DNA of 64,000 bases. Source: Pedobacter ghigonis (GTDB lineage Bacteria > Bacteroidota > Bacteroidia > Sphingobacteriales > Sphingobacteriaceae). Numbering within the stretch: the first letter of the stretch is position 1; each line of letters begins with the position of its first letter. Made by a program: the position numbers and the translations under genes. The stretch spans positions 1 to 64,000 of the forward strand of contig NZ_CAESCM010000004.1 in the NCBI RefSeq assembly GCF_903166585.1. The letters run 5' to 3'. Shown piece by piece: positions 9,234 to 45,328 of the stretch. Under the pieces are notes generated by a model. That model ran no database searches and was not told the origin of the DNA. It worked only from the letters and a program-made list of their open reading frames with translations.

Positions 9234-9270
9234 AAATATTTATCACGGTTAAAAATCGTGATAAATATTT
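9234..9270 (-). terminator. Long hairpin spanning the stop codon of the RemB-like gene
   Basis: AAATATTTATCACG (9234-9247) pairs perfectly with CGTGATAAATATTT (9257-9270) around a 9-nt loop that contains the TAA stop of the outer-membrane gene. The AT-rich 14-bp stem has only a weak T-run after it (TATTTC on the minus strand), so it may be a poor terminator or a 3'-end stability element. Confidence 0.5.
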
Positions 9271-10865: not shown

Positions 10866-10868
10866 TTT

Positions 10869-12809
10869 CTAATCGTTAATAATTTGATCTAATTCTTCAA
10901 ATACCGAATTTTTACTTTTGAACTCCGGGACAAGCTTTTTCATGTTGATTACCACTTGTCTATCATTACCTGATCTTGCTGAGGCAACCAGCTCATAAAT
11001 CTGTTTTTCTACATCAGCAAATATATATTCACGCACCTTGCCAATCATAATTTTTTCGTGGTGGGTGGGCATGGTATTCTCGTTATCATTCAAGAGCTCT
11101 TCGTAAAGTTTTTCTCCCGGTCGTAAACCAGAATATTCAATCTTCACATCAACATTGGGTTCTAAACCAGCTAATCTGATCATTTTTTTGGCCAATTCTA
11201 CAATCTTAACCGATTTACCCATATCGAAAACGAAAATCTCACCACCTTTACCCATGCACCCTGCTTCCAGCACCAAACGGCAAGCCTCAGGTATGGTCAT
11301 AAAATAGCGGGTAATTTCAGGGTGCGTAACCGTTAATGGTCCACCTTTTTCAATCTGCTGCCTGAAGCGGGGAATTACAGATCCGTTTGATCCTAAAACA
11401 TTGCCAAACCTCGTAGTAATAAATTTGGTAATAGGTTTGACATTTAGCTCGTTAATGTATTGTAAACCATTACTAAAAATAAAGCCTTCTGTACTTAACG
11501 AATTGTTTAATGATTGAACATAAATTTCGGCAATCCTTTTAGAAGCCCCCATAATATTAGTGGGGTTTACTGCCTTATCGGTAGAAATCATCACGAACTT
11601 TTGCACACCAAATTTAACAGCTTTATCCGCAATAGTTTTGGTACCCAAAACATTAGCCTTAATCGCCTCTGCCGGATTATCCTCCATCAAAGGCACATGT
11701 TTATAGGCCGCAGCATGATACACATAATGTGGTTTATAAGTATCAAATAACTTATCCATACGTTGTTCATCTCTAACATCACCTACAAAGGCATGAAAAT
11801 TCTTATTCTTATTGTTTTCTTCTAATTCAAGATACAGTTCGTGTAAAGCTGTTTCCAATTGATCACAAAGAATAATCAAACCCACCTCGAATTTAGATAG
11901 CTGCCGCACAATTTCACTACCAATAGATCCGGCCGCGCCAGTAATCAGGATTCGCTTTTTATTCAGCATTTCACCAATGCCTTCTATATCAATCTTAATA
12001 GATTTACGATTTAATAGATCCTCAATATTCAGCTTTTGAATCTGCGCAGACTTTAACTGTCCATTGGTCCAAACATCAAGTGGCGGGATATTTAAAACCT
12101 TTATATCATTTTCTAAACATAAATCTACAATCGCATCTTTTTTATCATCGGGAATAGTGTAAGAGGCAAAGATAATTTCATCCAGCTCATGCTCACCAAT
12201 CAAATAGGCCAGGTTCGCAGCGTCCAAAATTTTCACACCATCTATGGTCTTGCCCACCTTGCGCTGATCATCATCAACAAAGGCAACAATATTTTTATTT
12301 ACACTTCCATCATGATCAAAAGTTCGTTTAGTGGCCAGGCCAGCTTCACCAGCTCCGTAAATAATTACCTTTTTCTTATCCAGGTTAAGGTTCTTCACAT
12401 AAATAAAGAAGTATTTAATCAGCACTCGATAAGTCATCAACAGCAAAAAGCTGGCTAAACCATTGGTGATTAATATAGTAAAAGAAATTAAGGGGTATTG
12501 GAAAAAAGTAATTGAAATTAGATTTAGAACAAAAAAAGTTCCGTTACAAATAATTACTGATAACAAAATGCGGAATGAATCCTGAGCGCTGGTATAACGA
12601 ATAATGCCCGTAAAGGTCTTAATATGAAAAAAAACAGCAATATTTATGGTTCCGAGAATCAAAAGATTCCGGGCCAACTCTGGCAATTCAATTGCAGTTA
12701 AATCTAAGTTATTCTTAAGTGAATAAGCAAATATTAAAGAACAGGTGCATATAGTCAAATCTAATAAGAAAATGACCCAGCGGGGAACAATATTAATTTG
12801 TGTAAACAA
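10869..12809 (-). CDS. CapD/WbpM-type nucleotide-sugar 4,6-dehydratase (membrane)
   Basis: 646 residues. Four N-terminal membrane helices (about 10-125) are followed by a first Rossmann-like domain (IIYGAGEAG, about 148-156) and a second SDR domain with the NAD motif ITGAAGSIGS (about 290). The catalytic segment STDKAVNPTNIMGASKR has Met in place of the usual Tyr, the S-M-K triad of WbpM/PglF, which convert UDP-GlcNAc to UDP-4-keto-6-deoxy-GlcNAc. No in-frame ATG precedes the first helix; the likely start is TTG at 12809. It lies downstream of NeuD-like and WecA-like genes but without the aminotransferase such groups usually carry. Confidence 0.88.
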   Translation of the reverse strand: MFTQINIVPRWVIFLLDLTICTCSLIFAYSLKNNLDLTAIELPELARNLLILGTINIAVFFHIKTFTGIIRYTSAQDSFRILLSVIICNGTFFVLNLISITFFQYPLISFTILITNGLASFLLLMTYRVLIKYFFIYVKNLNLDKKKVIIYGAGEAGLATKRTFDHDGSVNKNIVAFVDDDQRKVGKTIDGVKILDAANLAYLIGEHELDEIIFASYTIPDDKKDAIVDLCLENDIKVLNIPPLDVWTNGQLKSAQIQKLNIEDLLNRKSIKIDIEGIGEMLNKKRILITGAAGSIGSEIVRQLSKFEVGLIILCDQLETALHELYLELEENNKNKNFHAFVGDVRDEQRMDKLFDTYKPHYVYHAAAYKHVPLMEDNPAEAIKANVLGTKTIADKAVKFGVQKFVMISTDKAVNPTNIMGASKRIAEIYVQSLNNSLSTEGFIFSNGLQYINELNVKPITKFITTRFGNVLGSNGSVIPRFRQQIEKGGPLTVTHPEITRYFMTIPEACRLVLEAGCMGKGGEIFVFDMGKSVKIVELAKKMIRLAGLEPNVDVKIEYSGLRPGEKLYEELLNDNENTMPTHHEKIMIGKVREYIFADVEKQIYELVASARSGNDRQVVINMKKLVPEFKSKNSVFEELDQIIND

Positions 12810-12854
12810 AATACAATAGGCTAAATTTTAGTAAAGATACACATTATAACAATC

Positions 12855-13403
12855 CTAATACAAATCTAATGCGATAACTTCATCGTTTTCAAAAGCATCC
12901 GGAATCTCTGTTAGTCTTGCCACGCTACTACAGCCCTCAATACTTACCCCCTTGCCAATCTTAGCACCGCCACCAATATATGAATTAGGATATATACTGC
13001 AAAAATCTCCGATGAACGCATCATGATCAATAGTTACGTTAGCATTAATCACTACGTGCTTACCAATAATTGCTCCCGACTGAATCACAGCACCGGCTAA
13101 AATTACACTTCCTTCTCCAATTACAACATCGGCTGCAACCGTAGCTTTAGGATGCACTATAGTGCCAAATTCATGTACAATATATTTGGAAATATTTCGC
13201 CTGATCTCATTATTACCTATTCCAATAATAAGCTTTGCCTGTTGCTCAATACTTTCGTGATAAGAAGAAACAGGAACACCGTTGATTACTGATAAATCTT
13301 GATTATCATCAAAATAGGTGACTAACTGATCATCATTTAATTTAATCGTATCTCCAATCACCCTTGCGTGGCCTCCACCACCATAAATTACCCAATCACT
13401 CAT
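12855..13403 (-). CDS. NeuD/PglD-type sugar acyltransferase
   Basis: 182 residues. A small N-terminal Rossmann-like domain (VIYGGGGHARVI, about 4-15) binds the nucleotide sugar, followed by left-handed beta-helix hexapeptide repeats (about 85-165) that bind acetyl-CoA; the His in VTIDHDAFIGD matches the catalytic base of PglD. Relatives N-acetylate 4-amino sugars (PglD, LegH) or O-acetylate sialic acid (NeuD). It overlaps the end of the WecA-like gene by 8 bp (ATGAGTGA), so it is translationally coupled. It is a candidate to supply the N-acetylation step missing from the nonulosonic-acid block 14 kb away. Confidence 0.82.
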   Translation of the reverse strand: MSDWVIYGGGGHARVIGDTIKLNDDQLVTYFDDNQDLSVINGVPVSSYHESIEQQAKLIIGIGNNEIRRNISKYIVHEFGTIVHPKATVAADVVIGEGSVILAGAVIQSGAIIGKHVVINANVTIDHDAFIGDFCSIYPNSYIGGGAKIGKGVSIEGCSSVARLTEIPDAFENDEVIALDLY

Positions 13404-14376
13404 TACTTAACTTTAAGTTAAACAAATGTTCTCTACCCTCAATTTTAAATCTTAAGGTTACGAAAACAACCAGGCACATTGCCAACAAGAATAATGCCGA
13501 TAAAAAATTAGCCTGTATAACAAAGATAATAAGGAGGTTAATAACCAATTGAACAGCCAAATAAAGCGCTACAACAGCCAGTTGTGGCCATTTTTTCTCA
13601 TTAGCTAAATATTGATAAAAATGTGAGCGGTGTGCTTTAAAAATATTTTCCTTCCGCATTACCCTGAAGAAAATTGTAGTCACTGTATCCAATCCGTATA
13701 CCAGTAAAAATAAAATGTAAACTGGATTCTGTGTTTTAAAAATCAACTGTCCTAAAAGAAAAACAATAATAAAGGCAATACTTACACTCCCTACATCCCC
13801 CGCAAAGCATTTGGCTTTTTTTCTAAAGTTGAAAAAGTTAAATACCAATACAGATATAATTATCATAAGCAATAGTTGTACAGATGTAAAATCAACAACA
13901 TACTGATCGATATAATAAAGGGTGCCTAAAAGCAATAAACTATATCCACCTGTAATCCCGTTAATGCCATCCATAAAATTATAGGCATTAATAGTACCTA
14001 TTACTACAACAGCTCCTATTGCCGTAAAATACCAGGGGAAATAAATTACATCCAGTTGTGTAAAGAGCAATAGCACCGATAAACCATGTACTATCAATCT
14101 CACTTTGTTATTAAGCGTATGCATATCATCCAGAAAGCTGATAAGCGCAATGAGAAACAAACCGATACTGAAAAACAGATAGTGAAAGTCAAAAAGAAAA
14201 AAAGCAAGCAAGCCTGCCAGGCTAAAAATAATCCCTCCTCCACGTATAGTAACACTAGAATGAGAACTTCGATGGTTAGGTTTATCAATGATATTAAATC
14301 GATCTGCTATTTTGAAATAGGTTATTTCAAGAAAAAATAGTGCCGAAATAATTAGAGTAGTTTCTAAAAATGTCAT
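13396..14376 (-). CDS. WecA/WbpL-type undecaprenyl-phosphate sugar-1-phosphate transferase
   Basis: 326 residues with about ten membrane helices. It transfers a HexNAc-1-phosphate to undecaprenyl phosphate and so starts the lipid-linked repeat unit. Family motifs are present: FLDDMHTL (DD pair, about 84), NAYNFMDGINGITGG (about 131-145, the NxxNxxDG core) and the HRSHFYQYL segment with paired histidines (about 246). It belongs to the MraY/WecA superfamily; WbpL-type enzymes use 6-deoxy-HexNAc donors such as UDP-FucNAc or UDP-QuiNAc, which fits the neighbouring CapD-like dehydratase. Confidence 0.88.
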   Translation of the reverse strand: MTFLETTLIISALFFLEITYFKIADRFNIIDKPNHRSSHSSVTIRGGGIIFSLAGLLAFFLFDFHYLFFSIGLFLIALISFLDDMHTLNNKVRLIVHGLSVLLLFTQLDVIYFPWYFTAIGAVVVIGTINAYNFMDGINGITGGYSLLLLGTLYYIDQYVVDFTSVQLLLMIIISVLVFNFFNFRKKAKCFAGDVGSVSIAFIIVFLLGQLIFKTQNPVYILFLLVYGLDTVTTIFFRVMRKENIFKAHRSHFYQYLANEKKWPQLAVVALYLAVQLVINLLIIFVIQANFLSALFLLAMCLVVFVTLRFKIEGREHLFNLKLSNE

Positions 14377-23429: not shown

Positions 23430-24659
23430 CTAATCGTCAAGCCCTTTCCCAGCAACATTATGTCTTAATTTCCACTCCCCGTTTTCACCCTTGCCCCATA
23501 AGTGCGGAGATCTGAATTTATCACATAGCTCGTGGAAATGCTCCGACTCCATGCCTATATATTCCATAACGTCGTTGAAGTAACGATCCGGGAATTCACC
23601 GTCAAAACGGTTTACGAGCGCAACGCCTTCTTCTCTGGTAAGGTGTCTGTTCCTGATTTCCTGAGAAGCATCATATGTAGCTCTTCCTATACCAAATTTA
23701 ATATAAGTAGTATAGAAGTGAAGATCATCGATCTTATCATCAATACCACTATATTTACTAAAAGTACCCTGAGTCCTGTGAGGCCTTGCTTTAAAACCTG
23801 TATTTTCAACAGCATAATAATACACTTCCTGAGGAGTCCATTTCAAATAATAACCTAAATAATGAACCTCAATATTAGCTCTTTCAAGATCTTCTGCCCT
23901 TGGAGGAAGATATGCCATAAGGTCACTTAACTTCACATCATATTTTTCCATAAGTTCTTTAATAGAAACACCTGCAAGGTAAATCTCGTCAAGTTTATCA
24001 AAACTGTGGTATGACTTATCTCTTAGAGATGTCATGTTATCAGCTATAGGATTACCATATTCTGCTTCATTTTCTCCATAAAAAATAAGGCTTATACCAT
24101 GTTGTGCAGCAATTTTTGGAGCAAGGTTTTTTTGCCCTAATATAAAAGTCTGGAAAGGGTGCATTAAATTTTCTATAGACAGCTTGGTAAGCAATTTCAT
24201 TACTTTACCATTACGGTAAAATGAAATGTTATCAAAGCCACTATCTAACCAGTTTCTCCAGTTTTGTAGACCATAATCAGTATATAAAATTGGGGGCCAG
24301 GTAACTGTCAAAGGATTCATTCCGTACTTATATTTAAGTACGTGTGCCTGGTATGCACTGTCTTTACCTCCACTGCCCGGTACAAGGCAGTCATAAGAAC
24401 CATCATTTTTTCTGTGCTTATCAAGAAGTTTTATAAGCTCCTCTTCACGCATTCCCCAATTAATATTATCCTTAATCTCTGCAGTTCTACAAGCATCACA
24501 AATCCCTTCCTCATCAAAGTTCATAGTTACTTTTTTACTATCAATGGTATGCTTAAACTCAACCGTAGACGCCGGCCTTTGATTAGACATTACACATTTT
24601 GTACAGAACTTTACATCATGCGGCAGACCATAGTAGGTCTCAAATTTATTCTCTGACAT
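23430..24659 (-). CDS. N-acetyl sugar amidotransferase (WbuX/PseA family)
   Basis: 409 residues. An N-terminal zinc-ribbon-like pair CTKC (19-22) and CDAC (54-57) is followed by the ATP-pyrophosphatase P-loop PGSGGKDS (94-101). The family converts an N-acetyl group on a sugar to N-acetimidoyl (acetamidino), with ammonia from a HisH/HisF-like pair, as in WbpG-HisH2-HisF2 of Pseudomonas and PseA of Campylobacter. The HisH-like gene overlaps it by one base and the HisF-like gene lies next, forming an intact cassette. The likely substrate is the nonulosonic acid or its CMP form. Confidence 0.88.
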   Translation of the reverse strand: MSENKFETYYGLPHDVKFCTKCVMSNQRPASTVEFKHTIDSKKVTMNFDEEGICDACRTAEIKDNINWGMREEELIKLLDKHRKNDGSYDCLVPGSGGKDSAYQAHVLKYKYGMNPLTVTWPPILYTDYGLQNWRNWLDSGFDNISFYRNGKVMKLLTKLSIENLMHPFQTFILGQKNLAPKIAAQHGISLIFYGENEAEYGNPIADNMTSLRDKSYHSFDKLDEIYLAGVSIKELMEKYDVKLSDLMAYLPPRAEDLERANIEVHYLGYYLKWTPQEVYYYAVENTGFKARPHRTQGTFSKYSGIDDKIDDLHFYTTYIKFGIGRATYDASQEIRNRHLTREEGVALVNRFDGEFPDRYFNDVMEYIGMESEHFHELCDKFRSPHLWGKGENGEWKLRHNVAGKGLDD

Positions 24660-25315
24660 TATAATAAGTTATTGGTTATTGCCCAGTTTTTATAAATTGA
24701 AACGCCTTTGTCGGCGCTTTTCTCAGGATGAAATTGTGTTGCAAAAATATTATCCTTTATAACCGATGAACAAAATTCAATATCATCATAATTGGTTAAA
24801 GTTAATCTAATTGCATTATCATCAGGTTTTACATAATAAGAATGCACAAAATACATGAAATCGTTATTATCAAGCTCATGCAGTGGTGTTTTACTCCAGT
24901 CATAATTATCTGCATAGATCCTATTCCATGCAATGTGCGGAACTTTTATCTTTCTGTCTTCGAATTGCTCGGGAAATCTTTTTATTATTCCCGGGATAAG
25001 ATCAAGGCCTTTACCCGTTCCAAATTCTTCACTTTCAGTAAAGAGTAATTGCTGTCCAAGGCATATCCCAAACAATGGCTTACCCGCATTAACCATATCT
25101 TTAATGGGGTTTTCTATATCCAGGTTCTTAAGATTATTCATAGCCTCATTAAAAGCTCCTACACCTGGTAATATAAGCGCATCAGCATTAAGAATATCTT
25201 CTTTATCAGAAGATATTTTCGCATTCATTCCTACAGTATCACATGCCTGTTTAACACTGAACAAATTACCTAGCTGATAGTCTATTATAACTACTTTTTT
25301 CTTACTGTTATCCAT
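24659..25315 (-). CDS. hisH: HisH-like glutaminase subunit (sugar-amidation type)
   Basis: 218 residues from ATG 25315, which shares one base with the hisF-like stop (TAATG); an ATG 12 bp upstream is less likely. Class I glutaminase with the full Cys-His-Glu triad: GICLGQQ (Cys85) and QFHPEKS (His196, Glu198). It should release ammonia from glutamine and pass it through the HisF-like barrel. Since no other his genes are nearby and the amidotransferase follows, it serves amidino-group formation and not histidine synthesis. Confidence 0.85.
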   Translation of the reverse strand: MDNSKKKVVIIDYQLGNLFSVKQACDTVGMNAKISSDKEDILNADALILPGVGAFNEAMNNLKNLDIENPIKDMVNAGKPLFGICLGQQLLFTESEEFGTGKGLDLIPGIIKRFPEQFEDRKIKVPHIAWNRIYADNYDWSKTPLHELDNNDFMYFVHSYYVKPDDNAIRLTLTNYDDIEFCSSVIKDNIFATQFHPEKSADKGVSIYKNWAITNNLL

Positions 25316-26160
25316 TATAATCTGCACTCTATTTCGTTAGCCAATAACTCTTTCTTCACATCGGTAATACTACAAGGTTCAAATGTATGGAAATTTCTTT
25401 TTTGTTTCAAAAACTCAACATTCCCTTCCAGATCTGATGCTGTAGATTCGTTTTCTTTTATAAAATCATAATGAAACAAAGATGATATCATTACCGCGTC
25501 CGGATTGCTCTGTTTTAAAACATCAACCACATGTCGCTTATTGCCGGCACCACCATGAGCAATTACAGGTATACTCACCAAACTAGTTATTTTAGATATA
25601 AGGTCATTATCAAAGCCCTGGCCGGTTCCTTCCTTATCTACGGAGGTAATAACAATTTCTCCAGCTCCAAGCTCATCAACTTTCTGGGCCCATTCAAAAA
25701 CATCTACACCGGTATACTCACGTCCATTATCGGTATAAGCAAGATATTTGCCTTCAGACTCTTTTATGGCTTCAATTGCGACAACAATAGTAGAAGAGCC
25801 AAACATTCTTGAAGCCTCTTTGATAAGCTGTGGGTTCTTGATTGCAGCCGTATTAAGGCATACTTTATCTGCGCCTACACGAAGTACTTCTTTAATATCA
25901 GAAATTGACCTTAGGCCTCCTCCAACAGTAATGGGAATAAATATCTTTTTTGCTGTTTCAGTTATTATGTCATGAAGGCTGTTTCTTTCATATAAAGATG
26001 CTACAACATCCATGAACATTAATTCATCTGCCCCCTGTTCGTAATAATATTTGGCAAAATCTGATGGCTTACCTAACACCCTTAATCCTTCAAGATGTAT
26101 ACCCTTAACTAGATTAGGTCCTTTAATGTCTAATCGGGGTATTATTCTGGTTGTTTTCAT
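25315..26160 (-). CDS. hisF: HisF-like ammonia-channel protein (sugar-amidation type)
   Basis: 281 residues, a TIM barrel. Against the well-known Thermotoga HisF, Asp11 is kept (IIPRLDIKG) and the ammonia-gate residues Arg5, Glu46 and Lys99 are present, but the second catalytic acid Asp130 is Glu130 (VVAIEAIK). This fits a barrel that retains the ammonia tunnel while losing the ImGP synthase chemistry. The C-terminus is about 25 residues longer than true HisF. The gene overlaps legF by 4 bp and hisH by 1 bp. Confidence 0.85.
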   Translation of the reverse strand: MKTTRIIPRLDIKGPNLVKGIHLEGLRVLGKPSDFAKYYYEQGADELMFMDVVASLYERNSLHDIITETAKKIFIPITVGGGLRSISDIKEVLRVGADKVCLNTAAIKNPQLIKEASRMFGSSTIVVAIEAIKESEGKYLAYTDNGREYTGVDVFEWAQKVDELGAGEIVITSVDKEGTGQGFDNDLISKITSLVSIPVIAHGGAGNKRHVVDVLKQSNPDAVMISSLFHYDFIKENESTASDLEGNVEFLKQKRNFHTFEPCSITDVKKELLANEIECRL

Positions 26161-26843
26161 TTACTATTGTTTAAATAAAATTCTGCTAAATTCCAGTCTG
26201 CAAAAGTATCAATATCAATACTTCTTTCTTCAGGCATTATGATTTTTTTTATTTTTTTAAATTCACTAAGAGGTGATTTTTTAACAGCCTCCGCATTTAT
26301 AAGGTACATTGAGCCGTTCAACGCAAAAACCTGAGGACAGTCCTGCCTTCTTTCAAAATTTCCTTCTTTACTTTTTTTAAGGTAACCGTCGTCGTTTTCT
26401 TCAAAAAGCGTAAAGTAAGGATTCTCTTTTGAATACTTAACACTTACAACCATATCAGTATCTCCACTATAGTCTGCAATCAGATTTTTAAAATCTTCTT
26501 GGCTCCTAAAAGGAGATGTAGGCTGTAAAAGCAATATTGCATCAAAGCAGCAACCCTGATTTTCATAAAATTTCAGGGCATGCATAATAACATCATAAGA
26601 CGATGCTTTGTCTGTTGCGAGTTCTTCTGGTCTCTTAAAAGGAATCTTGACACCCATCCTATCTGCTATTGCAAAAACATCATCATCGTTGGTTGTGACA
26701 CAAATCATATCATCCCCCTTCATGTTTTCCAACGCAAATTCAATGCTATATGCAATAAGAGGCTTGTTTCCTAACAACTTTGTATTTTTGCCAGGCACCC
26801 CCTTTGAGCCTGCCCGTGCAGGAATCAGGTAAAGAATCCTCAT
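26157..26843 (-). CDS. legF: CMP-nonulosonic acid synthetase (LegF/NeuA family)
   Basis: 228 residues. N-terminal LIPARAGSKGVPGKN (about 6-20) is the CMP-sugar synthetase signature that binds CTP, followed by LLLQPTSPFR (about 103-112) and the conserved SIDIDTFADWNLAE end (about 210-223). It activates a sialic-acid-like sugar as its CMP derivative in the cytosol. It overlaps ptmE by 4 bp at its start and hisF by 4 bp at its end. LegF is preferred over NeuA or PseF because of the LegB, LegC, LegG, LegI and PtmE neighbours. Confidence 0.85.
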   Translation of the reverse strand: MRILYLIPARAGSKGVPGKNTKLLGNKPLIAYSIEFALENMKGDDMICVTTNDDDVFAIADRMGVKIPFKRPEELATDKASSYDVIMHALKFYENQGCCFDAILLLQPTSPFRSQEDFKNLIADYSGDTDMVVSVKYSKENPYFTLFEENDDGYLKKSKEGNFERRQDCPQVFALNGSMYLINAEAVKKSPLSEFKKIKKIIMPEERSIDIDTFADWNLAEFYLNNSK

Positions 26844-27886
26844 AAGGTTATATGTTTTATATCAACCTGAGCTTTTTCAAAATCTTCATGCTTGCCTACA
26901 TCCAGCCAATAGCCTGCAAAAGGATATGAAATCACCTTAAAGTTGTTTTTTATAAGGCTCTCCATTAAGTCTGTAGCATTAAAGAAAGTATTGTTCGGGA
27001 TGTTTTGCAGCACTTTCTTTTTCATCAGATAAATGCCTCCATTAGAGTAATAAGTATAGGTAGGTTTTTCTTTAAAACTTTTTACCTGCCTGTGGTTAGT
27101 TTCAAGAACAGCATAAGGGATACTCACTTGATAAGGAATACTTAGCACGGCAAGGTCTGCGTCTTCTTCTATAAACTCTAAAAAAAACTGTTCATAATCT
27201 ATATTGGTCAAAAGGTCAGAATTGGTCACCAGTATATAATCGTGTTTAAAATTCTTTATTTTTGAAACCGCTCCAATTGTTCCAAGAGGTTCATCTTCCC
27301 AAATATATTCAATTTCAACATTCTTATTTTTACCTTGTCCAAAATGTTCTTCAATCTGTTTTCCAAGGTATTTGATACAAACCCAGAAATCATCAATGCC
27401 ATATAAAGCCAAGCGATCCAGATTATGTTCCATAATAGCTTTGTCCCCCACTTTTAAAAGAGGTTTTGGAACTGTATCTGTAAGTGGCTGCAGCCTTTGT
27501 CCTCTACCACCTGCCATAATTACAGCATCTACAGGAAGATAAGATCTTATATTCCTAAAGTTAATTATATTTACAACTTTATGATTCTCATCAACTACAG
27601 GCAATATCCTAAAATCCCCTTTTCTATATTCTATTATCTTTTTTATATCGTTCTCACCTTTTGTAATATATCTGGGATTCTTTTGAATGATCTCATCAAC
27701 AATACTATCAGTACTGATTCCTTTTATCAGTCCCCTTCTTACATCACCATCAGTAAGTGCACCCAAAAGTTTGTCCTCTGCATCCACAACAAACAGTATA
27801 GCATCATGTGATAACATCTCCAATACTATCAATGCTTGCTTTACTGTACTCCCCAAAGGGATTAAATGGTCACTATATACCCTCAT
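26840..27886 (-). CDS. ptmE: CBS-domain sugar-1-phosphate nucleotidyltransferase (PtmE-like)
   Basis: 348 residues. Two CBS motifs (about 1-115: HDAILFVVDAEDKLLGALTDGD cited by position, then FRILPVVDENHKVVNIINFR) are fused to a nucleotidyltransferase domain beginning AVIMAGGRGQRL (about 119) with VPKPLL at about 138. The same architecture is found in Campylobacter PtmE, which makes GDP-GlcN/GDP-GlcNAc for legionaminic acid. This suggests that the pathway here uses GDP-linked intermediates. CBS pairs often bind adenine nucleotides, so the entry step may be allosterically controlled. It overlaps legG by 14 bp. Confidence 0.82.
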   Translation of the reverse strand: MRVYSDHLIPLGSTVKQALIVLEMLSHDAILFVVDAEDKLLGALTDGDVRRGLIKGISTDSIVDEIIQKNPRYITKGENDIKKIIEYRKGDFRILPVVDENHKVVNIINFRNIRSYLPVDAVIMAGGRGQRLQPLTDTVPKPLLKVGDKAIMEHNLDRLALYGIDDFWVCIKYLGKQIEEHFGQGKNKNVEIEYIWEDEPLGTIGAVSKIKNFKHDYILVTNSDLLTNIDYEQFFLEFIEEDADLAVLSIPYQVSIPYAVLETNHRQVKSFKEKPTYTYYSNGGIYLMKKKVLQNIPNNTFFNATDLMESLIKNNFKVISYPFAGYWLDVGKHEDFEKAQVDIKHITL

Positions 27887-28985
27887 AGAACTTTTTTATA
27901 ATATTAATTATAACACTTACAGCACCACTTTTATAATACACATTATTTCCATTATAGTTCCCTTTAGCCATTGCATTTTGTATTGTGTCATAAAGTGCAT
28001 CTTCATTAAATGGACTATTTAGAATATTAAGGCTCTGAGCGCGCCCCTTCTGCCTGTCGCCTACATTCACTACATATTTTCCAAAAGAAGCTGCTTCGAT
28101 AATTCCGCTTGAAGTATTTCCTAGTAGTATTTTAGCATAATACATTGCCGAAAAATAATTGGCTTTACCAAAATTTTCTATCAGTAAAATCCTCTCCGGC
28201 ATTTCTTCTTTTAATTTTATAATCTCTTCCCTGAATATCGAGCCGAGGGTATCTGCATTAGGCATCGTTATAACTAAAAACATCTCTTCAGCTATTTTAG
28301 CCATTGCCTTTTTCATGATTCTTGCATAGATAAGGTTATCTGCAGGTGAAACAGTTTCCGGATGAAAAGTCACAAGCGCATACCCTTCATCCGGAATAGC
28401 AAATTTATCAAAGAAAGCCCTTTTCTCTATGGGCTTGAAAGAAGGCATATTATCAAGGCTCAGCGAGCCTACACTATAAATGCCGTAATTACTGTCCAAT
28501 AAATTAATTATTTTTTCTTTAAAGTTGTCTGCTGCTGTAAAGTGAAGAACAGATGCTAAAGTAATCTGATGCCGGTAAATATTATCTATTGCCCCCAAGG
28601 TTGTTTCTCCTCCGTGGATATGGCCAAATTTTACCCCAAAGGGTATACCTGCCTGCACGGCAGCACTCATTTCAAATCTGTCTCCCAGACATAAAACCAA
28701 GTCATATTTATGTACTGCCCAAAAGTCAGCAAATTTCAGGACAGTAAGTCCGTAGGATGTTGTTATTGATTGTTCATCATCATTTGATACAAGTGATGAT
28801 ACTTTATGAATACATCCATATCCATCTTTTATTATATCGTCTATAGTATACCCATGGCTTTTTGATAGATGCGTGCCAAAAGCAATTATTTCTAAAGAAA
28901 AAAAACTATCTGCTTTTAATTTCTCTAAAAGTGGGAGATAAATTCCATAATCAGCTCTTGAGCTTGTTAGTACACCTAATCTCAT
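27873..28985 (-). CDS. legG: Hydrolysing NDP-sugar 2-epimerase (LegG/NeuC family)
   Basis: 370 residues with a GT-B-like fold. LTSSRADYGIYLPLL at the N-terminus, LGDRFEM (about 100-106), GHIHGGE (about 121-127) and the C-terminal GNTSSGIIEAASFG (about 293-306) are family signatures. It removes GDP (or UDP) from the 2,4-diamino-trideoxyhexose and inverts C2, giving the free mannose-configured sugar used by LegI. It overlaps legI by 4 bp and ptmE by 14 bp. Confidence 0.88.
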   Translation of the reverse strand: MRLGVLTSSRADYGIYLPLLEKLKADSFFSLEIIAFGTHLSKSHGYTIDDIIKDGYGCIHKVSSLVSNDDEQSITTSYGLTVLKFADFWAVHKYDLVLCLGDRFEMSAAVQAGIPFGVKFGHIHGGETTLGAIDNIYRHQITLASVLHFTAADNFKEKIINLLDSNYGIYSVGSLSLDNMPSFKPIEKRAFFDKFAIPDEGYALVTFHPETVSPADNLIYARIMKKAMAKIAEEMFLVITMPNADTLGSIFREEIIKLKEEMPERILLIENFGKANYFSAMYYAKILLGNTSSGIIEAASFGKYVVNVGDRQKGRAQSLNILNSPFNEDALYDTIQNAMAKGNYNGNNVYYKSGAVSVIINIIKKFYEGI

Positions 28986-30007
28986 ATGATATCCGTCAAC
29001 AATAATTTATCAAATTTATTTTTATCAACGGTTAACTTTCTGCCTACAACATTATTCCATTCCATAGGAGATATACCATCACCCGGCCTCAGTGCTATTA
29101 TATCATTATCAGTAATAATATGACCTTTAGGCAAATCATTATTTAGATGTATGCTTTTGCGAGCTATAGCTATATTTTTCAATTCACTTTCACTTGGCTC
29201 TTTTATCCCGTTGCCGCCAATTGCCAGCTCAATATTGCGAATAGCTTTGACCATCTGTATTAATTCACCAGGCTCAAGTGAGGCGACATGGTCAGGTCCC
29301 GGCAATGTACGGTCAAGCGTAAAATGTTTTTCAATAATTACAGCACCCATAGCTACTGCAGCGATGGGAATTTCTATTCCTAATGTGTGGTCAGAATAAC
29401 CAACTTCCACACCAAAATCTTTCTTAATAGACAGCATTGCCTTTAAGTTCACATCTTTCATAGGAGTAGGATATTCAGTATTACAATGCAATATTGATAT
29501 TTTATCTTTTGTAAGCCCGTATTCAGTCAGAACATCTGTAGCTTGTTTAATATCAGATTCTGCACACATTCCAGTAGATAAAATAACAGGTTTTCCAAAA
29601 GAGGCCACAGCTCTTAGGTAGGGGAAATTTGTTACCTCACCGCTGGGAATTTTAAATAATGGAAGTCCAAGGTCATTAAGATAATACAGTCCATCGACAT
29701 CAAAAGCTGTAGAAAAAAAATGTATTCCTTTTTCTTTACAATACTTAATCAGTTCTATATGATTCTCATGGCTTAATTCAAGCTTTTTAAGCATATTAAA
29801 TTGAGAATCATCGCCATCACCTATGTTCTTATTTTGATACTCTGCCTTTTTCGCATTAGGACTAACAAGTTTCTCTGCTACAAAGGACTGGAATTTAATA
29901 TAATCAACTCCAGCAACAACAGCAGCATCAATAAGCTGTTTTGCCATATTCATATCGCCATTGTGATTTACCCCTGCCTCGGCAATAATTATTGTATGCT
30001 TTATCAT
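28982..30007 (-). CDS. legI: Nonulosonic acid synthase (LegI/NeuB family)
   Basis: 341 residues. The TIM-barrel NeuB domain shows IIAEAGVNHNGD (about 6-17), KFQSF (about 38-42), FFSTAFD, KIPSGE (about 118-123) and GYSDHT (about 204-209). The C-terminal SAF (antifreeze-like) domain, about 280-341, caps the neighbouring subunit's active site. It condenses the 2,4-diacylamido hexose with phosphoenolpyruvate. It overlaps the formyltransferase gene by 4 bp at its start and legG by 4 bp. Confidence 0.9.
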   Translation of the reverse strand: MIKHTIIIAEAGVNHNGDMNMAKQLIDAAVVAGVDYIKFQSFVAEKLVSPNAKKAEYQNKNIGDGDDSQFNMLKKLELSHENHIELIKYCKEKGIHFFSTAFDVDGLYYLNDLGLPLFKIPSGEVTNFPYLRAVASFGKPVILSTGMCAESDIKQATDVLTEYGLTKDKISILHCNTEYPTPMKDVNLKAMLSIKKDFGVEVGYSDHTLGIEIPIAAVAMGAVIIEKHFTLDRTLPGPDHVASLEPGELIQMVKAIRNIELAIGGNGIKEPSESELKNIAIARKSIHLNNDLPKGHIITDNDIIALRPGDGISPMEWNNVVGRKLTVDKNKFDKLLLTDII

Positions 30008-30900
30008 AAACCTAATTTATCTCCAACTTTTAATGTAGCTTCAGATTCTATTTCTAATATTTCAAGAAAATTATCAGCCGTCTTAACTAAAAAGCCTTGT
30101 TCTGTTTTTGCTAAAAGCTGTCCATTTGTACCGATATAACATGGAGCATTTTTAACTATTCTTGCTCTGTTGATTTTAACCTCATTGCCTCTTATATTTG
30201 TAGTAGCCATAGGCCCTGGTTTATCTATTGATCGTACGAAATTGAAAATGGCCCTAGATGTTTGATTCCAGTTAATAATCTCATCTCCAGCCCCCCTCCT
30301 TCCGCAATAAAAGCCTATCGGATGAATTGTATTTTGTACAATTCTTTTAGAGGTGCCATTCTGTATTTCCTTTATTGCATCGTACAAAATATTCGCGCAC
30401 TCAGTATAAGCTATGTTTAAAAGTGAACTATAAGTATCTTCATCGCTAATCGTATAGCTTCTTTGCAAAAGGATATCTCCAGTATCTATTCCTTCATCAA
30501 CATAATGAACAGTTATTCCAAATTCCTTTTCATCGTTAATTAATGCCCAATTTAGAATATTTCTTCCTCGATAAAATGGCAGCTTGCCCGCGTGGCAATT
30601 GATTACTCCGAATTTTGGCACCTTAAGTATAGTAGATCTGAAGATTTGGTTAAAGCTCATTGAAACTAACAAATCTAACTTGTAAGAATTTGCCTTAACA
30701 ATAAATTCTTCTGTATTTATTTTAACAGGAAATAGATAATCAATATTATATTTTTCAGCAAATTCCTTTAATGTGCTATCATTTGTATCTGAACGTGGTA
30801 CTATAAAAGCTATTTCTATAGTTTCATCACTAATCAATTTCTCAAACGCTAAATGAGACCAAGGCCCATCAGCTAAATATCCTATTTTTATTTTTTCCAT
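30004..30900 (-). CDS. Sugar N-formyltransferase (Fmt-like)
   Basis: 298 residues. A formyl-transferase Rossmann domain with the catalytic set Asn101, His103 (INCHAGKLP) and Asp139 (DEGIDTGDI) that uses N10-formyl-tetrahydrofolate, followed by a C-terminal beta domain like that of methionyl-tRNA formyltransferase. Relatives in O-antigen loci formylate 4-amino sugars. It is embedded between legC and legI (3-bp gap and 4-bp overlap), at the very step where LegH would N-acetylate the 4-amino group. It should therefore give a 4-formamido intermediate, and a 7-N-formyl nonulosonic acid. Confidence 0.82.
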   Translation of the reverse strand: MEKIKIGYLADGPWSHLAFEKLISDETIEIAFIVPRSDTNDSTLKEFAEKYNIDYLFPVKINTEEFIVKANSYKLDLLVSMSFNQIFRSTILKVPKFGVINCHAGKLPFYRGRNILNWALINDEKEFGITVHYVDEGIDTGDILLQRSYTISDEDTYSSLLNIAYTECANILYDAIKEIQNGTSKRIVQNTIHPIGFYCGRRGAGDEIINWNQTSRAIFNFVRSIDKPGPMATTNIRGNEVKINRARIVKNAPCYIGTNGQLLAKTEQGFLVKTADNFLEILEIESEATLKVGDKLGL

Positions 30901-30903
30901 TAA

Positions 30904-32070
30904 TTACTTCAAATTATTTATCGCCTGCAATCTTACCCCACTAGGTATATTAACTAGGCGATCTGCAACGAAAATACTATTTATAAGACTATCCGTTTGG
31001 CAATCTTTAAACATAGGCAATCGATTCAGTAATTCCCATACTGGTCTGGTCATTATCCCATTTGCATTTGTAAATTCCAAAAACTTATTTCTATGGTTCA
31101 GGTCTTCTAAAAGAATTGCATTAAGCCAGTAGTTAGCCTTTGAGTCTACAGGTTCGTTAATAAAAGAGATATTTGAACCGTTAAAAAACCCTTTATATAG
31201 CGAAGCAAGATTTCTTTTGTTTTCAACAAATAGGTCTAGTTGTTCTAATTGAGCGCACGCTAAAGCCGCATTTAAATTCGGCATTCGATAATTGTAGCCT
31301 ATTTGATCATGTACGAATTCCCATCTATGGGGCACTTTGGCTTGGGTAGTTAAGTGCTTTGCTTTTTTTGCAATGGCCTCATCATCTGTGACTAATGCAC
31401 CTCCGCCACCGCAAGTAACTGTTTTATTTCCATTGAAGCTAAATACGCCTACCTTCCCAAAAACACCAGTATGTTTACCTTTGTAATGACTACCTAATGA
31501 CTCGGCTGCATCCTCAACTAAATCAATTTTCCATTGCTTACAAATCGCTGCTATTTCATCAATTTTACATGGAAGTCCAAAAGTATGCATAGGTACACAA
31601 GCGGCAATCCGTTTACCAGTTACCTTATTATAGCTACCATCGGCTCGCAATTCTGCATTTCCTTCTAAAAAGTTCCTTAAGGCTGTAGGCGACATCCCTA
31701 ATGTTTCTTTATCTATATCAATAAAAACAGGTGTTGCACCAATGTATGAAATAGCATTTGCAGTTGCAATAAAAGTCAAGGCCTGTGAGAGCACTTCATC
31801 ATCTCTTTCAACGTCAACAAGCAATAAGCCTAAATGTAAGGCATTAGTACCATTTACAATAGCTATGGCATACTTGGCTCCCGTAATTTTTGTCATCATT
31901 TCTTCGAAGCGATTGACATAAACTCCAACTGAAGAAACAAAAGTAGAGTCTATAGCATCTAAAACATATTTACGCTCATTTCCTATAAATACAGGTTCGT
32001 GCAAGGAAACAAAGTCTTTATCAGGGTATTGTTCTTTTACAAAATCAACGATTTTCTGAAATCTCTCCAT
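30904..32070 (-). CDS. legC: LegC-type PLP aminotransferase
   Basis: 388 residues of the DegT/DnrJ/EryC1 fold-type I family. VNGTNALHL (about 72-80), VEDAAESLG (about 185-193, Asp for the PLP ring nitrogen) and SFNGNKTVTCGGGG with the PLP lysine Lys216. FVSSVGVYVNRFE near residue 45 is typical of the LegC subgroup, which aminates C4 of the 4-keto-6-deoxy HexNAc nucleotide with glutamate. It sits 3 bp after legB. Confidence 0.9.
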   Translation of the reverse strand: MERFQKIVDFVKEQYPDKDFVSLHEPVFIGNERKYVLDAIDSTFVSSVGVYVNRFEEMMTKITGAKYAIAIVNGTNALHLGLLLVDVERDDEVLSQALTFIATANAISYIGATPVFIDIDKETLGMSPTALRNFLEGNAELRADGSYNKVTGKRIAACVPMHTFGLPCKIDEIAAICKQWKIDLVEDAAESLGSHYKGKHTGVFGKVGVFSFNGNKTVTCGGGGALVTDDEAIAKKAKHLTTQAKVPHRWEFVHDQIGYNYRMPNLNAALACAQLEQLDLFVENKRNLASLYKGFFNGSNISFINEPVDSKANYWLNAILLEDLNHRNKFLEFTNANGIMTRPVWELLNRLPMFKDCQTDSLINSIFVADRLVNIPSGVRLQAINNLK

Positions 32071-32073
32071 CTC

Positions 32074-33261
32074 TTACATTTTTGCGTCTAAATATTTCCC
32101 AGTTTCCTTGTGTCCAAAATCAGGAATCATTTGGTGGAATAAGTTAATTATTTGATCTTTGGACCATTTCTTTTCGGCCTTGTAGCTTGAAATAGTAGTT
32201 GCAAAATTGTTTAGTTTATCATTATCAAAATGAAGTTCATTTTTAATGATTCCCAAATTCTCGAATTTTGCTATATCCAAAACTTCATTTGAAGTAAAAA
32301 ATTCTTCAAAATCTTTTTCTCCTGTGGTATCACTAGCGGTGAATAAACAAGGCCATTTTTTGTCTTGTGGTAATGTACTCATCAATGCTCTTGCTTCTTC
32401 TTCAGTTTCACAGAGATAAGGCTCATAGCCCAACTCTTTCAAGTATTTAACCGCGATATCAGCAAAAGTAATTAAATGCAGCTCTTCACTTAACTTGGGA
32501 AAAAAAACATCTCTATTTTCCCCAAAAATACATGACATTAAACATAATTCACCAGATTCTTTGGGAATAACGAAATACCTTTTAATGTCATTTGGAGCTA
32601 CGATGGGTTGTTTTTTTTGAATTCGCTGATTAAATCCATGTAATAAAGAACCATCTGAAAATGCCACATTAGCAAAGCGAGCTGTAGATATGACGATTTT
32701 CTCACTTTTGCGCATTAAAAACATCTCCATGATCCGTTTTGATGCCCCCATCATGTTTACTGGATTAGCAGCCTTATCTGTTGAAACGCAAAAATATTTC
32801 TTAACGCCTTTTGCTATAGATTGATCGATGGTCTTAACTGTATTGAATACATTCACATCAATCATTCTCATTAAGGTAAACGGGTCCTTTTCACTTCGCA
32901 CATGCTTCAATGCAGATAAATTAAGTACATAGTCAAACTCACCATCTGCTTCAATAAAGGCATCATATTCTATAGATCCAATGTCTAAAGCAAAAGTTTG
33001 AAAATCACCCTCCATATAGCCAAATGAGCTCCTGATATCTCTTACCAGCTCAACCATATTATTTTCACTGATATCTACAACATGAAGCTTTAATGGATTT
33101 CTTTTAAATATTTCCTTGGTTACAGCCTGTCCGATAGAACCTGCTCCACCCAAAACCAAGAATTTAGATTGTGACACTTTTTCATTAAGGGCCATTGCGT
33201 GTTGAGCAATATCAACCTCAAACAATTCTTTTTCACGTCCTATTAAGTTAAGAATATTCAT
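32074..33261 (-). CDS. legB: LegB-type NDP-GlcNAc 4,6-dehydratase
   Basis: 395 residues. The SDR domain shows LGGAGSIGQ (about 38-45), NLSALKHVRSE (about 112) and STDKAANPVNMMGASKR (about 160-176), with Met in the place of Tyr, as in inverting and retaining HexNAc 4,6-dehydratases. There are no N-terminal membrane helices, unlike the CapD-like protein of this locus, which marks it as the soluble LegB type. The C-terminal 110 residues are specific to LegB. It opens the nonulosonic block, 6 bp after the Wzz-like gene. Confidence 0.88.
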   Translation of the reverse strand: MNILNLIGREKELFEVDIAQHAMALNEKVSQSKFLVLGGAGSIGQAVTKEIFKRNPLKLHVVDISENNMVELVRDIRSSFGYMEGDFQTFALDIGSIEYDAFIEADGEFDYVLNLSALKHVRSEKDPFTLMRMIDVNVFNTVKTIDQSIAKGVKKYFCVSTDKAANPVNMMGASKRIMEMFLMRKSEKIVISTARFANVAFSDGSLLHGFNQRIQKKQPIVAPNDIKRYFVIPKESGELCLMSCIFGENRDVFFPKLSEELHLITFADIAVKYLKELGYEPYLCETEEEARALMSTLPQDKKWPCLFTASDTTGEKDFEEFFTSNEVLDIAKFENLGIIKNELHFDNDKLNNFATTISSYKAEKKWSKDQIINLFHQMIPDFGHKETGKYLDAKM

Positions 33262-36952: not shown

Positions 36953-38089
36953 TTATTCAAAATAATTTAAGGTTTTAAAACCTCCTTCATTCAGGTACTC
37001 ATCTTTCTTCATTAAATGAAGATCAGACAAAGCCATCTCTTTAACTAGTGCTGGCAAATCATATTGTGGCTCCCACCCCAGCTGGGTTTTAGATTTGGTT
37101 GGGTCGCCAAGTAAAAGATCAACTTCTGTTGGCCGGTAATATTTAGGGTCTACACGAACTACTGTACTACCCAAAAATAACTTATCAGGGTCTAAGCCTA
37201 AACTACTAACCACCTCAACATCTAAACCGATGATTACACCTTTTTCGTTTTCATCCTTGCCGCTAAACTCAATAGCTATACCCAGTTCTGCAAAACTCAT
37301 GCGGACAAAATCGCGCACAGTAGTGGTTACACCTGTGGCAATAACGAAATCTTCGGGTTTTTCCTGTTGCAGAATTAACCACATGGCTTCGATATAATCT
37401 TTGGCATGTCCCCAATCGCGTTGCGCAGAAAGATTTCCCAAATATAAACACTGCTGTAGGCCTAATGCAATTTTGGCCGCTGCGCGTGTAATTTTACGAG
37501 TCACAAAAGTTTCTCCCCTTAACGGGCTTTCATGATTAAATAAAATCCCATTACTGGCAAACATGCCATAGGCTTCACGGTAGTTTACGGTAATCCAGTA
37601 AGCATACATCTTGGCAACAGCATAGGGCGAACGCGGGTAAAAAGGAGTACTTTCACTCTGTGGAACAGCCTGCACCAAACCATATAATTCAGAGGTGCTG
37701 GCCTGGTAAATTTTGGTTTTACGAGTTAAGCCCAAAATCCTGATGGCTTCGAGTAAACGCAAAGTACCAATACCATCGGCATTAGCGGTATATTCAGGCA
37801 TTTCAAAGCTCACATGCACATGGCTCATTGCTGCCAGGTTATAAATTTCATCAGGTTGTGTTTCCTGAATAATCCGGATAAGATTGGTTGAATCAGTTAA
37901 ATCGCCATAATGCAATTTAAAATTTACATGGCTTTCGTGCTGATCTTGGTAGAGATGATCAATCCGATCGGTATTAAATAATGATGAACGTCTTTTTATA
38001 CCATGCACAAAATAGCCCTTTCTAAGCAGAAATTCTGCCAGATAAGCACCGTCTTGTCCAGTAACGCCAGTGATAAGGGCAACCCTCAT
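36953..38089 (-). CDS. gmd: GDP-mannose 4,6-dehydratase
   Basis: 378 residues. [17 protein letters not shown] (5-21), the NADP-binding RRSS segment (about 34), NLAAMSHV (about 84-91), the STSE...YAVAKMYAY catalytic stretch (Ser-Glu, Tyr, Lys; about 127-160) and [14 protein letters not shown] (about 217-230) are all intact. It makes GDP-4-keto-6-deoxy-D-mannose, the precursor of GDP-L-fucose, GDP-D-rhamnose, perosamine and others. No reductase (fcl, rmd) or aminotransferase for this product is adjacent. It heads the long minus-strand run, with TATGTTTG (38121-38114) 24 bp upstream. Confidence 0.95.
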
Positions 38090-44293: not shown

Positions 44294-45328
44294 TTATCGT
44301 TTCGTTTTTCTGCTAGCTTTTTCCGCATCCATTACATTAATTGAATTATCAAGTTTATTAAATACAATCTCCTCACCAACGATAAAAGCTTTCGGATTCT
44401 CAAGCGGTGCAGTTAAAATCTCAAAATTTGCGATCTCATGACCAGAGTGAACCCGCATTGTATTGTGATTAACTACCGTGTAATTAACTGGATTGAAACT
44501 CGTGTCAAGATGATAGAAGATTTCTATATTAAGCTTATGCTTTAATAGTTCACCAAGGGGAGACCGCTGAATTCTTCTCATGTGAGCATTCCAGGCTCCA
44601 GTTTGGTGGGTTGGCTGGCCAGAAGCAACATCCAAAAACAAGGAAAAAATCCTTCTAAGACTATTTAGCGCAATCTCGCTATTTTGATATTCTTTCATCC
44701 GATTTTGAATCGCATCTAAATCTATCGAAAATAACCGCTTTGTATACCGTACCATATGAATCATGTGATCCTTGAGATAAGTAAAATATCCATAGCTTTT
44801 CAAAATTGTTCTGTACTGATCAACACTAGTAAAACCGTACTGCAAAGCCCGAAAGGCAATTGCCTTAGCTTCTTCCACTCCATCCAAACCAATGAGATGG
44901 TGCAGAATGATTAAACCCCTATTTTTTTCATAAAATGAAGGAATTTTCTTTCCTTTCTTATCAACTCTGGTAGAAACAATATGCACATGATTATTAGACG
45001 TGTCACTATGGAAATATATTAAATATGGGTTTTCTCCATAGCCCATTTTATCAAGCCATTGTTCTGCGACTTCTGTCAGCTGCATTTTATTATGAGACCT
45101 ACCATTTGCTGAAATGCACAAATGCAGCTGTGCATTTAATACTCTTGGATTTAGAGATGCTATCATTTTAAAATATGCTTTAAAATGTCTTGTCTTAATA
45201 TCTCTAAATATTGACAATGAACCGAAATTTTTGACGCTCATTAGCTCCCCCTTACCAGAGGACACCTTTCTGCTGTTATAGTTTACAGCAGAAAAGCGGC
45301 TGCTTGAAGAAAGAAACACTATTTCCAT
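44294..45328 (-). CDS. Relaxase / mobilization nuclease
   Basis: 344 residues. The N-terminus VNYNSRKV holds the likely nicking Tyr17, and HSDTSNNHVHIVSTRV holds the metal-binding His107, His114 and His116, the three-histidine HUH signature of MOB_P-type relaxases of Bacteroidota mobilizable elements. It would nick oriT and pilot the strand into a helper conjugation machine. The catalytic motifs are intact. It is preceded by a MobC-like gene 25 bp upstream; no coupling protein, transfer genes or integrase is in the window. Confidence 0.88.
   Translation of the reverse strand: MEIVFLSSSSRFSAVNYNSRKVSSGKGELMSVKNFGSLSIFRDIKTRHFKAYFKMIASLNPRVLNAQLHLCISANGRSHNKMQLTEVAEQWLDKMGYGENPYLIYFHSDTSNNHVHIVSTRVDKKGKKIPSFYEKNRGLIILHHLIGLDGVEEAKAIAFRALQYGFTSVDQYRTILKSYGYFTYLKDHMIHMVRYTKRLFSIDLDAIQNRMKEYQNSEIALNSLRRIFSLFLDVASGQPTHQTGAWNAHMRRIQRSPLGELLKHKLNIEIFYHLDTSFNPVNYTVVNHNTMRVHSGHEIANFEILTAPLENPKAFIVGEEIVFNKLDNSINVMDAEKASRKTKR

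Follow-up and report, generated by a model that had tools for sequence, protein, structure and literature searches.

A predicted sugar N-formyltransferase gene in the acetyltransferase slot of a legionaminic-type operon of Pedobacter ghigonis

The operon studied here lies in a window of 64,000 nt of Pedobacter ghigonis DNA (assembly GCF_903166585.1, contig NZ_CAESCM010000004.1, positions 1–64,000, forward strand), which is the whole stretch that was analysed. On its minus strand the genes follow in the order 4,6-dehydratase, legC, formyltransferase (FT), legI, legG, ptmE, legF, HisF-like, HisH-like, WbuX-type amidotransferase and flippase-like. The N-acetyltransferase LegH is absent from the operon and the sugar N-formyltransferase gene (30004..30900, minus strand) stands in its slot between legC and legI; the operon is therefore a real variant of the known legionaminic-type pathway, with a member of a widespread formyltransferase family, here called FT1. 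The gene content and order, the gene families, the catalytic residues, the fold, and the one-for-one exchange with an acetyltransferase in other genomes were shown by the analysis. Judging from sequence comparisons, we consider it likely that the enzyme formylates the LegC product in place of the LegH acetylation, which would give a 7-formamido acid.

To survey the gene in the slot, the LegC model TIGR04181 was run on 296 Bacteroidota genomes, on 200 from the phylum to which an Aliarcobacter locus belongs and on 369 from the class that contains a Halochromatium locus. The surroundings of LegC matches above the cut-off were fetched (2 of the 27 LegC places of one search were left out), giving 112 loci, with 32 from Bacteroidota and 56 and 24 from the other two groups. 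By our thresholds, two of these were without LegC and 20 without LegI within 8 kb, which left 90 loci, a count that leaves out the window and two loci selected by their FT. Genes were scored as NeuD-type when they reached at least 75 bits to one of 12 reference sequences, and as FT1 at 240 bits and at least 40% identity. A NeuD-type gene only was present in 63 of the 90 loci, FT1 only in 12, both in one and neither in 14. The mutual exclusion of FT1 and NeuD-type genes had a Fisher p of 3.8e-7, the loci not being phylogenetically independent, and these counts bear out the original prediction that a formyltransferase has taken the LegH slot. Among 92 loci, a single gene between legC and legI was NeuD-type in 39, FT1 in 8 and legG in 12; the most frequent occupant is a sugar acetyltransferase of the NeuD/PglD family, which FT1 replaces one for one. 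PglB/PglD-type and perosamine N-acetyltransferases acetylate 4-amino sugars, and when one NeuD-type occupant was searched against the PDB, a perosamine N-acetyltransferase was the nearest match, followed by PglB/PglD-type enzymes, with pilin-glycosylation and PglD enzymes among the entries. Three NeuD-type occupants were scanned and all scored above the TIGR03570 cut-off. As the window carries a formylating gene where its relatives carry an acetylating one, its sialic-acid-like surface sugar probably bears a formyl group. At a further locus (L127:8804-10055), an ATP-grasp-like and a HAD-like gene, both named by eye, lie between legC and legI with no acyltransferase, and they perhaps provide another N7 substituent.

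The strongest evidence that FT1 and the NeuD-type enzyme act on one substrate comes from near-identical operons. Eight chosen locus pairs were aligned at the DNA level. In the pair L190/L196, the DNA is 92.9% identical through legC and 98.0% identical from legI onwards. Over about 6.6 kb the slot gene alone differs, one locus having FT1 and its partner a NeuD-type gene. Five more pairs, the Bacteroidota pairs L145/L137 and L144/L139 (at lower identity) among them, show a clean break at the slot gene, and for L219/L222 and L142/L140 there were differences outside the slot gene too. Because some operon pairs differ, within the compared stretch, only in the slot gene, FT1 and the NeuD-type enzyme would share one substrate, and such one-gene swaps form a clean natural experiment on the role of FT1. 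In L181, L184, L188, L190 and L219, LegC shares 98% identity with the LegC of a locus that has a NeuD-type gene. On a LegC tree (FastTree), in which 33 of 90 inner branches were weak, at least 13 switches between slot states were needed to account for the 14 rows with FT1 only (the window and L054 among them), which suggests repeated exchange of FT1 and NeuD. The two genes appear to be a natural one-gene swap in bacteria of several phyla.

The window formyltransferase carries the Pfam domains Formyl_trans_N and Formyl_trans_C. The intact Asn-His-Asp set that had been claimed for it was recovered as N101, H103 and D139, which are the same in all 50 sequences aligned (the window and 49 of 80 FT loci) and align with the Asn, His and Asp of the genome's own Fmt. 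An AlphaFold model of the protein (mean predicted local distance difference test score 93.4) has the formyltransferase fold, and its best PDB fold matches were Fmt (Z 31.1, root-mean-square deviation 2.2, 288 residues) and ArnA (Z 29.9). Further matches were domains of 10-formyl-tetrahydrofolate dehydrogenase, then the sugar N-formyltransferases FdtF, QdtF, WbkC and WlaRD, and VioF was listed too. PseJ is a sugar N-formyltransferase that stands in for PseH in a pseudaminic pathway; it gave a weak phmmer match to the window enzyme (PDB 6ci2, 6ci4; residues 73-159, E 5e-12), which is longer than the PseJ chains of 192 and 217 residues. PseJ was not among the 50 structure matches listed for the model, which excludes nothing. 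The window enzyme passed no named NCBIfam cut-off, scoring 133.2 bits with the fmt model TIGR00460 (cut-off 201.5), and a blastn search of its gene against E. coli genomes gave no match. In a tree, FT1 (93 rows) formed one starred group, set against Fmt and 20 sequences of FT2, a second formyltransferase-like family described below. A separate fmt-like gene is present on contig 5 of the genome, together with two weaker formyl-domain genes. The possibility that an Fmt or a purine enzyme had been mistaken for a sugar enzyme was rejected, since FT1 is a separate group and an fmt-like gene is present elsewhere in the genome. Most likely, the enzyme transfers formyl to the 4-amine of the LegC product.

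FT1 relatives were collected in a one-per-species genome scan, of which the best 80 of 81 were used. By title these belong to Bacteroidota, Lachnospiraceae, other clostridia, kin of Campylobacter and Helicobacter, several proteobacteria, Prochlorococcus and a Heimdallarchaeota bin, among others. Three loci (L075, L081, L083) in which no FT1 frame was scored were dropped, and in the remaining 77 FT-selected loci LegI was found within 8 kb in 64 and adjoining FT in 55. No FT match at E 1e-50 was found in any of 40 genomes related to that of the window, of which 24 belong to its genus.

The seven open reading frames from the dehydratase (32074..33261) to the legF-like gene (26157..26843) were all found on the minus strand and are joined as tightly as had been claimed: a 6 bp gap precedes the dehydratase, the next two junctions are gaps of 3 bp each and the following four are overlaps of 4, 4, 14 and 4 bp, and from the dehydratase through the amidotransferase each junction is a 3 bp gap or a 1–14 bp overlap. 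NCBIfam cut-offs were passed by the LegC aminotransferase (30904..32070; TIGR04181 545.8 bits, cut-off 420), the NeuB-type nonulosonate synthase LegI (28982..30007; TIGR03569 470 bits, cut-off 399.65), the NeuC-type hydrolysing 2-epimerase LegG (27873..28985; TIGR03568 343 bits, cut-off 235.9), the HisH-like protein and the amidotransferase. They were missed by the dehydratase, the HisF-like protein, the LegF-like CMP-nonulosonate synthetase (best TIGR03584, 132 bits, under the cut-off of 205.7) and PtmE (26840..27886), a protein with CBS and nucleotidyltransferase domain matches whose substrate we infer. LegC is the sole DegT-type aminotransferase found in the window, the genome's other DegT matches being on contig 3.

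We propose a nonulosonic acid pathway of legionaminic type, which is probably GDP-linked, as the ptmE-like gene suggests. The 4-amine made by LegC would be N-formylated by FT, not N-acetylated by a LegH of NeuD/PglD type; LegG would then remove the nucleotide and epimerise C2, LegI would condense the 2-acetamido-4-formamido-2,4,6-trideoxy sugar with phosphoenolpyruvate, whereby N4 of the sugar becomes N7, and LegF would activate the acid with CMP. We infer the substrate, the formyl donor, the position of the formyl group and the configuration, as well as the target of the amidino cassette considered below. If the LegC product is formylated, the logic of the pathway puts the formamido group at C7, and the product would belong to the legionaminic series, as a 5-acetamido-7-formamido acid, or be the C8 epimer of that acid. 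The GDP route of Campylobacter uses equivalents of LegC, LegI, LegG, PtmE and LegF. This CMP-legionaminic acid pathway is cited in PMC6388019 and PMC6137143. The window operon has counterparts of these five enzymes and differs from that route in having FT for LegH and a dehydratase of another family. In legionaminic-type acids, N7 is generally assumed to carry an acetyl group. Should FT1 act as we propose, N7 formyl would occur in many operons across phyla, and formyl versus acetyl at this position could alter the antigen and its recognition by hosts, phages and lectins.

The acetamidino cassette downstream consists of a HisF-like subunit (25315..26160; WbuZ 275.3 bits, under the cut-off of 299.7), a HisH-like glutaminase subunit (24659..25327; TIGR01855 205.7 bits, cut-off 105.4) and a WbuX-type N-acetyl sugar amidotransferase (23430..24659; TIGR03573 355 bits, cut-off 203.2), all on the minus strand. 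The flippase-like gene that follows was named by eye and has weak model matches only. Cassettes of this kind also modify other acetamido sugars, and the full cassette was present in only 13 of the 90 LegC loci (2 of 12 FT1-only, 8 of 63 NeuD-only and 3 of 14 with neither). It is possible, though somewhat less likely than not, that FT formylates N7 while the cassette modifies another sugar of the polymer, in which case the residue would be 5-acetamido-7-formamido; this alternative concerns the amidino part alone. It is opposed by the 4 bp overlap of the cassette with legF, the cassette genes also overlapping each other, and by the recurrence of the order legF-hisF2-hisH2-wbuX in L145, L149 and L153. 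Because the cassette is common to FT1 and NeuD loci, its target, if it acts on the nonulosonic acid, would be the N5 acetamido group, which it may turn into 5-acetamidino; a 5-acetamidino group on the acid is plausible. The wider proposal, that the operon makes 5-acetamidino-7-formamido legionaminic acid and that FT1 and NeuD are a general two-allele N7 formyl/acetyl cassette in several phyla, is put forward tentatively, and we rate it somewhat short of probable as a whole. If the two-allele cassette is real, N7 would be switched between formyl and acetyl by exchange of a single gene in several phyla.

Several findings weigh against the proposed pathway and its formylation step. The order legB-legC-formyltransferase-legI-legG-ptmE-legF given in the original prediction was confirmed, but not the identity of its first gene, as the window dehydratase had no match at E 0.001 to the curated LegB model TIGR04180. 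This model does score other proteins, such as the dehydratase beside legC in L142 (530 bits, cut-off 475). The window dehydratase reached 705 bits to PDB 3pvz, an entry titled 'UDP-N-acetylglucosamine 4,6-dehydratase', with 70.5 of 407.75 bits to the PseB model and 88 of 730 bits to FnlA. When the dehydratase of L142 (9145-10155) was used as a probe for the TIGR04180-like type, the dehydratase within 8 kb of legC was of the window type in 46 of 92 loci, L142-like in 36 and neither in 10. In the FT1-only loci (n=13) the numbers were 7, 3 and 3, which indicates that the dehydratase type does not follow the slot gene. The alternation of two 4,6-dehydratase families near legC may affect the configuration of the acid, and a C8 epimer may be made instead of the legionaminic (D-glycero-D-galacto) configuration if the dehydratase inverts C5. 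To the same side belong the 14 loci with neither FT1 nor a NeuD-type gene, and three loci (L133, L134, L237) in which FT1 lies downstream of legI, outside the slot. A NeuD-type gene was also present within 8 kb in 16 of the 77 FT-selected loci, often adjoining FT, and in 3 of the 33 with LegC (at least 40% identity) plus LegI. The locus L201 (4482-7032) holds a NeuD-type gene and a full FT1, each of which looks intact, together with a 567-aa protein with an FT1-like part. L201 and the FT-selected loci holding both genes indicate that FT is not a simple LegH substitute there, and in such loci it may act alongside the NeuD-type enzyme or on something else. No chemistry was found for the source organism.

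Acetyltransferase-like genes outside the operon count in the same direction. LegH had been claimed to be missing, which is correct for the operon but not beyond it, as a protein with PglD_N and Hexapep domains (12855-13403; TIGR03570 140 bits, cut-off 160.8) is encoded in the same window and a NeuD-like orphan gene lies on another contig of the genome. With no dedicated aminotransferase beside it, the 12855-13403 gene could supply LegH in trans, the acid being di-N-acetylated and FT acting on a different amino sugar, but we regard this as unlikely. Its protein is just 28% identical to a slot-type LegH query, and its block of glycosyltransferase, PglD-like protein, dehydratase and 538-aa protein recurs (at identities of 86.8, 55.8, 83.6 and 82.8%, respectively) in a genus-mate that gave no FT match at 1e-50. 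In the 34 kb read of that genome there was no LegC relative, and LegB was matched at 28% only, in the dehydratase of the block. As the block is kept in a genus-mate with no FT match and no legC-like gene in these 34 kb, the 12855-13403 protein probably serves another sugar, although this is not proof. The block occupies 9249-14376 of the window and its 538-aa protein has no Pfam match; compared with the genus-mate (L254), its neighbours reach 83–87% identity but the PglD-like protein only 56%.

That FT acts on a gmd-derived GDP-sugar, as Brucella WbkC does on GDP-perosamine, is highly improbable: gmd (36953-38089; TIGR01472 593 bits, cut-off 415) lies about 6 kb from FT, and FT matches WbkC in the PDB both by sequence and by fold, but the gmd product is disfavoured as substrate because no perosamine-synthase-like DegT gene adjoins gmd (LegC is the sole DegT match on the contig) and the genus-mate, which gave no FT match, has a homologue of gmd (68.7%), and LegI accompanies FT in 64 of 77 loci, as given above. 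A pseudaminic pathway was rejected, since no window protein reaches a Pse-type cut-off (PseI model 283.9 vs 340.25 bits).

Published systems were compared through excerpts of open-licence papers. In Halorubrum sp. PV6, N-formyl-legionaminic acid was reported on the S-layer glycoprotein by mass spectrometry and assigned as 5-N-formyl (PMC6137143). Like the window, this organism has a legionaminic pathway with a candidate N-formyltransferase gene; unlike in the window operon, the gene lies between legG and a neuD, so that formyltransferase and neuD occur together (PMC6137143). Compared by gene order, not by sequence, legG-FT-neuD would resemble the FT2 layout more than the slot that FT1 occupies. 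In plasmid searches bearing on the type of the Halorubrum enzyme, the matches listed were all below 60% identity and no haloarchaeon was among them. The original remark, that a 5-acetamidino-7-formamido form was not known as described for the legionaminic series, has to be corrected in part, as an N-formyl-legionaminic acid is published for Halorubrum (PMC6137143); the 5-acetamidino-7-formamido form was not found in these excerpts.

In Geobacillus flagellin glycosylation islands, an acetyltransferase gene is replaced by one for a formyltransferase, which was taken to mean that the sugar is formylated and not acetylated (PMC5109656); that case differs in concerning another sugar (fdtC position, dTDP-linked) in one strain, not legionaminic acid. 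Pseudoalteromonas distincta has a 5-acetamido-7-formamido acid (PMC3210612, PMC7281560), which, like the product proposed here, is a 5,7-diamino nonulosonic acid with a formamido group at C7, but is L-glycero-L-manno, of the pseudaminic series. For Legionella pneumophila, a reference title in PMC3210612 gives a 5-acetamidino-7-acetamido nonulosonic acid, the D-glycero-D-talo isomer, with the C5 acetamidino group as proposed here and N7 acetyl, not formyl. The excerpts also describe Pectobacterium strains that differ by a formyl- or O-acetyltransferase in one island, and name N-formyl in a list of known substituents. Neither a formyltransferase tested in the place of LegH nor a legionaminic acid of the 5-acetamidino-7-formamido kind was found in them, which is weak evidence of absence.

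The second formyltransferase-like family, FT2, was seen in 9 of 92 loci (L142:4047-4925, L152:12062-12949, L186, L191, L246 and others) and is about 26–30% identical to FT1. All 20 aligned FT2 sequences have Gly at the position of the catalytic Asn, with His and Asp kept. A PIG-L-type deacetylase gene was present in 9 of 9 LegC loci with FT2, and nine more loci have PIG-L without FT2. FT2 could swap the N5 acetyl for another acyl group. Neither FT2 nor a PIG-L gene was seen in the window operon, and a plasmid search at the nucleotide level around FT2 yielded no match. A protein of about 650–740 aa with a weak formyltransferase-like match was noted in L060, L063, L064, L213, L214 and L224, three of which are titled Helicobacter, the other three having come through the LegC search of the Aliarcobacter phylum. 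The G+C content is 28–36% over about 12–34 kb of the window and mostly 37–41% in the surroundings, and a MobA/VirD2-type relaxase gene lies at 44294-45328, beside the polysaccharide region.

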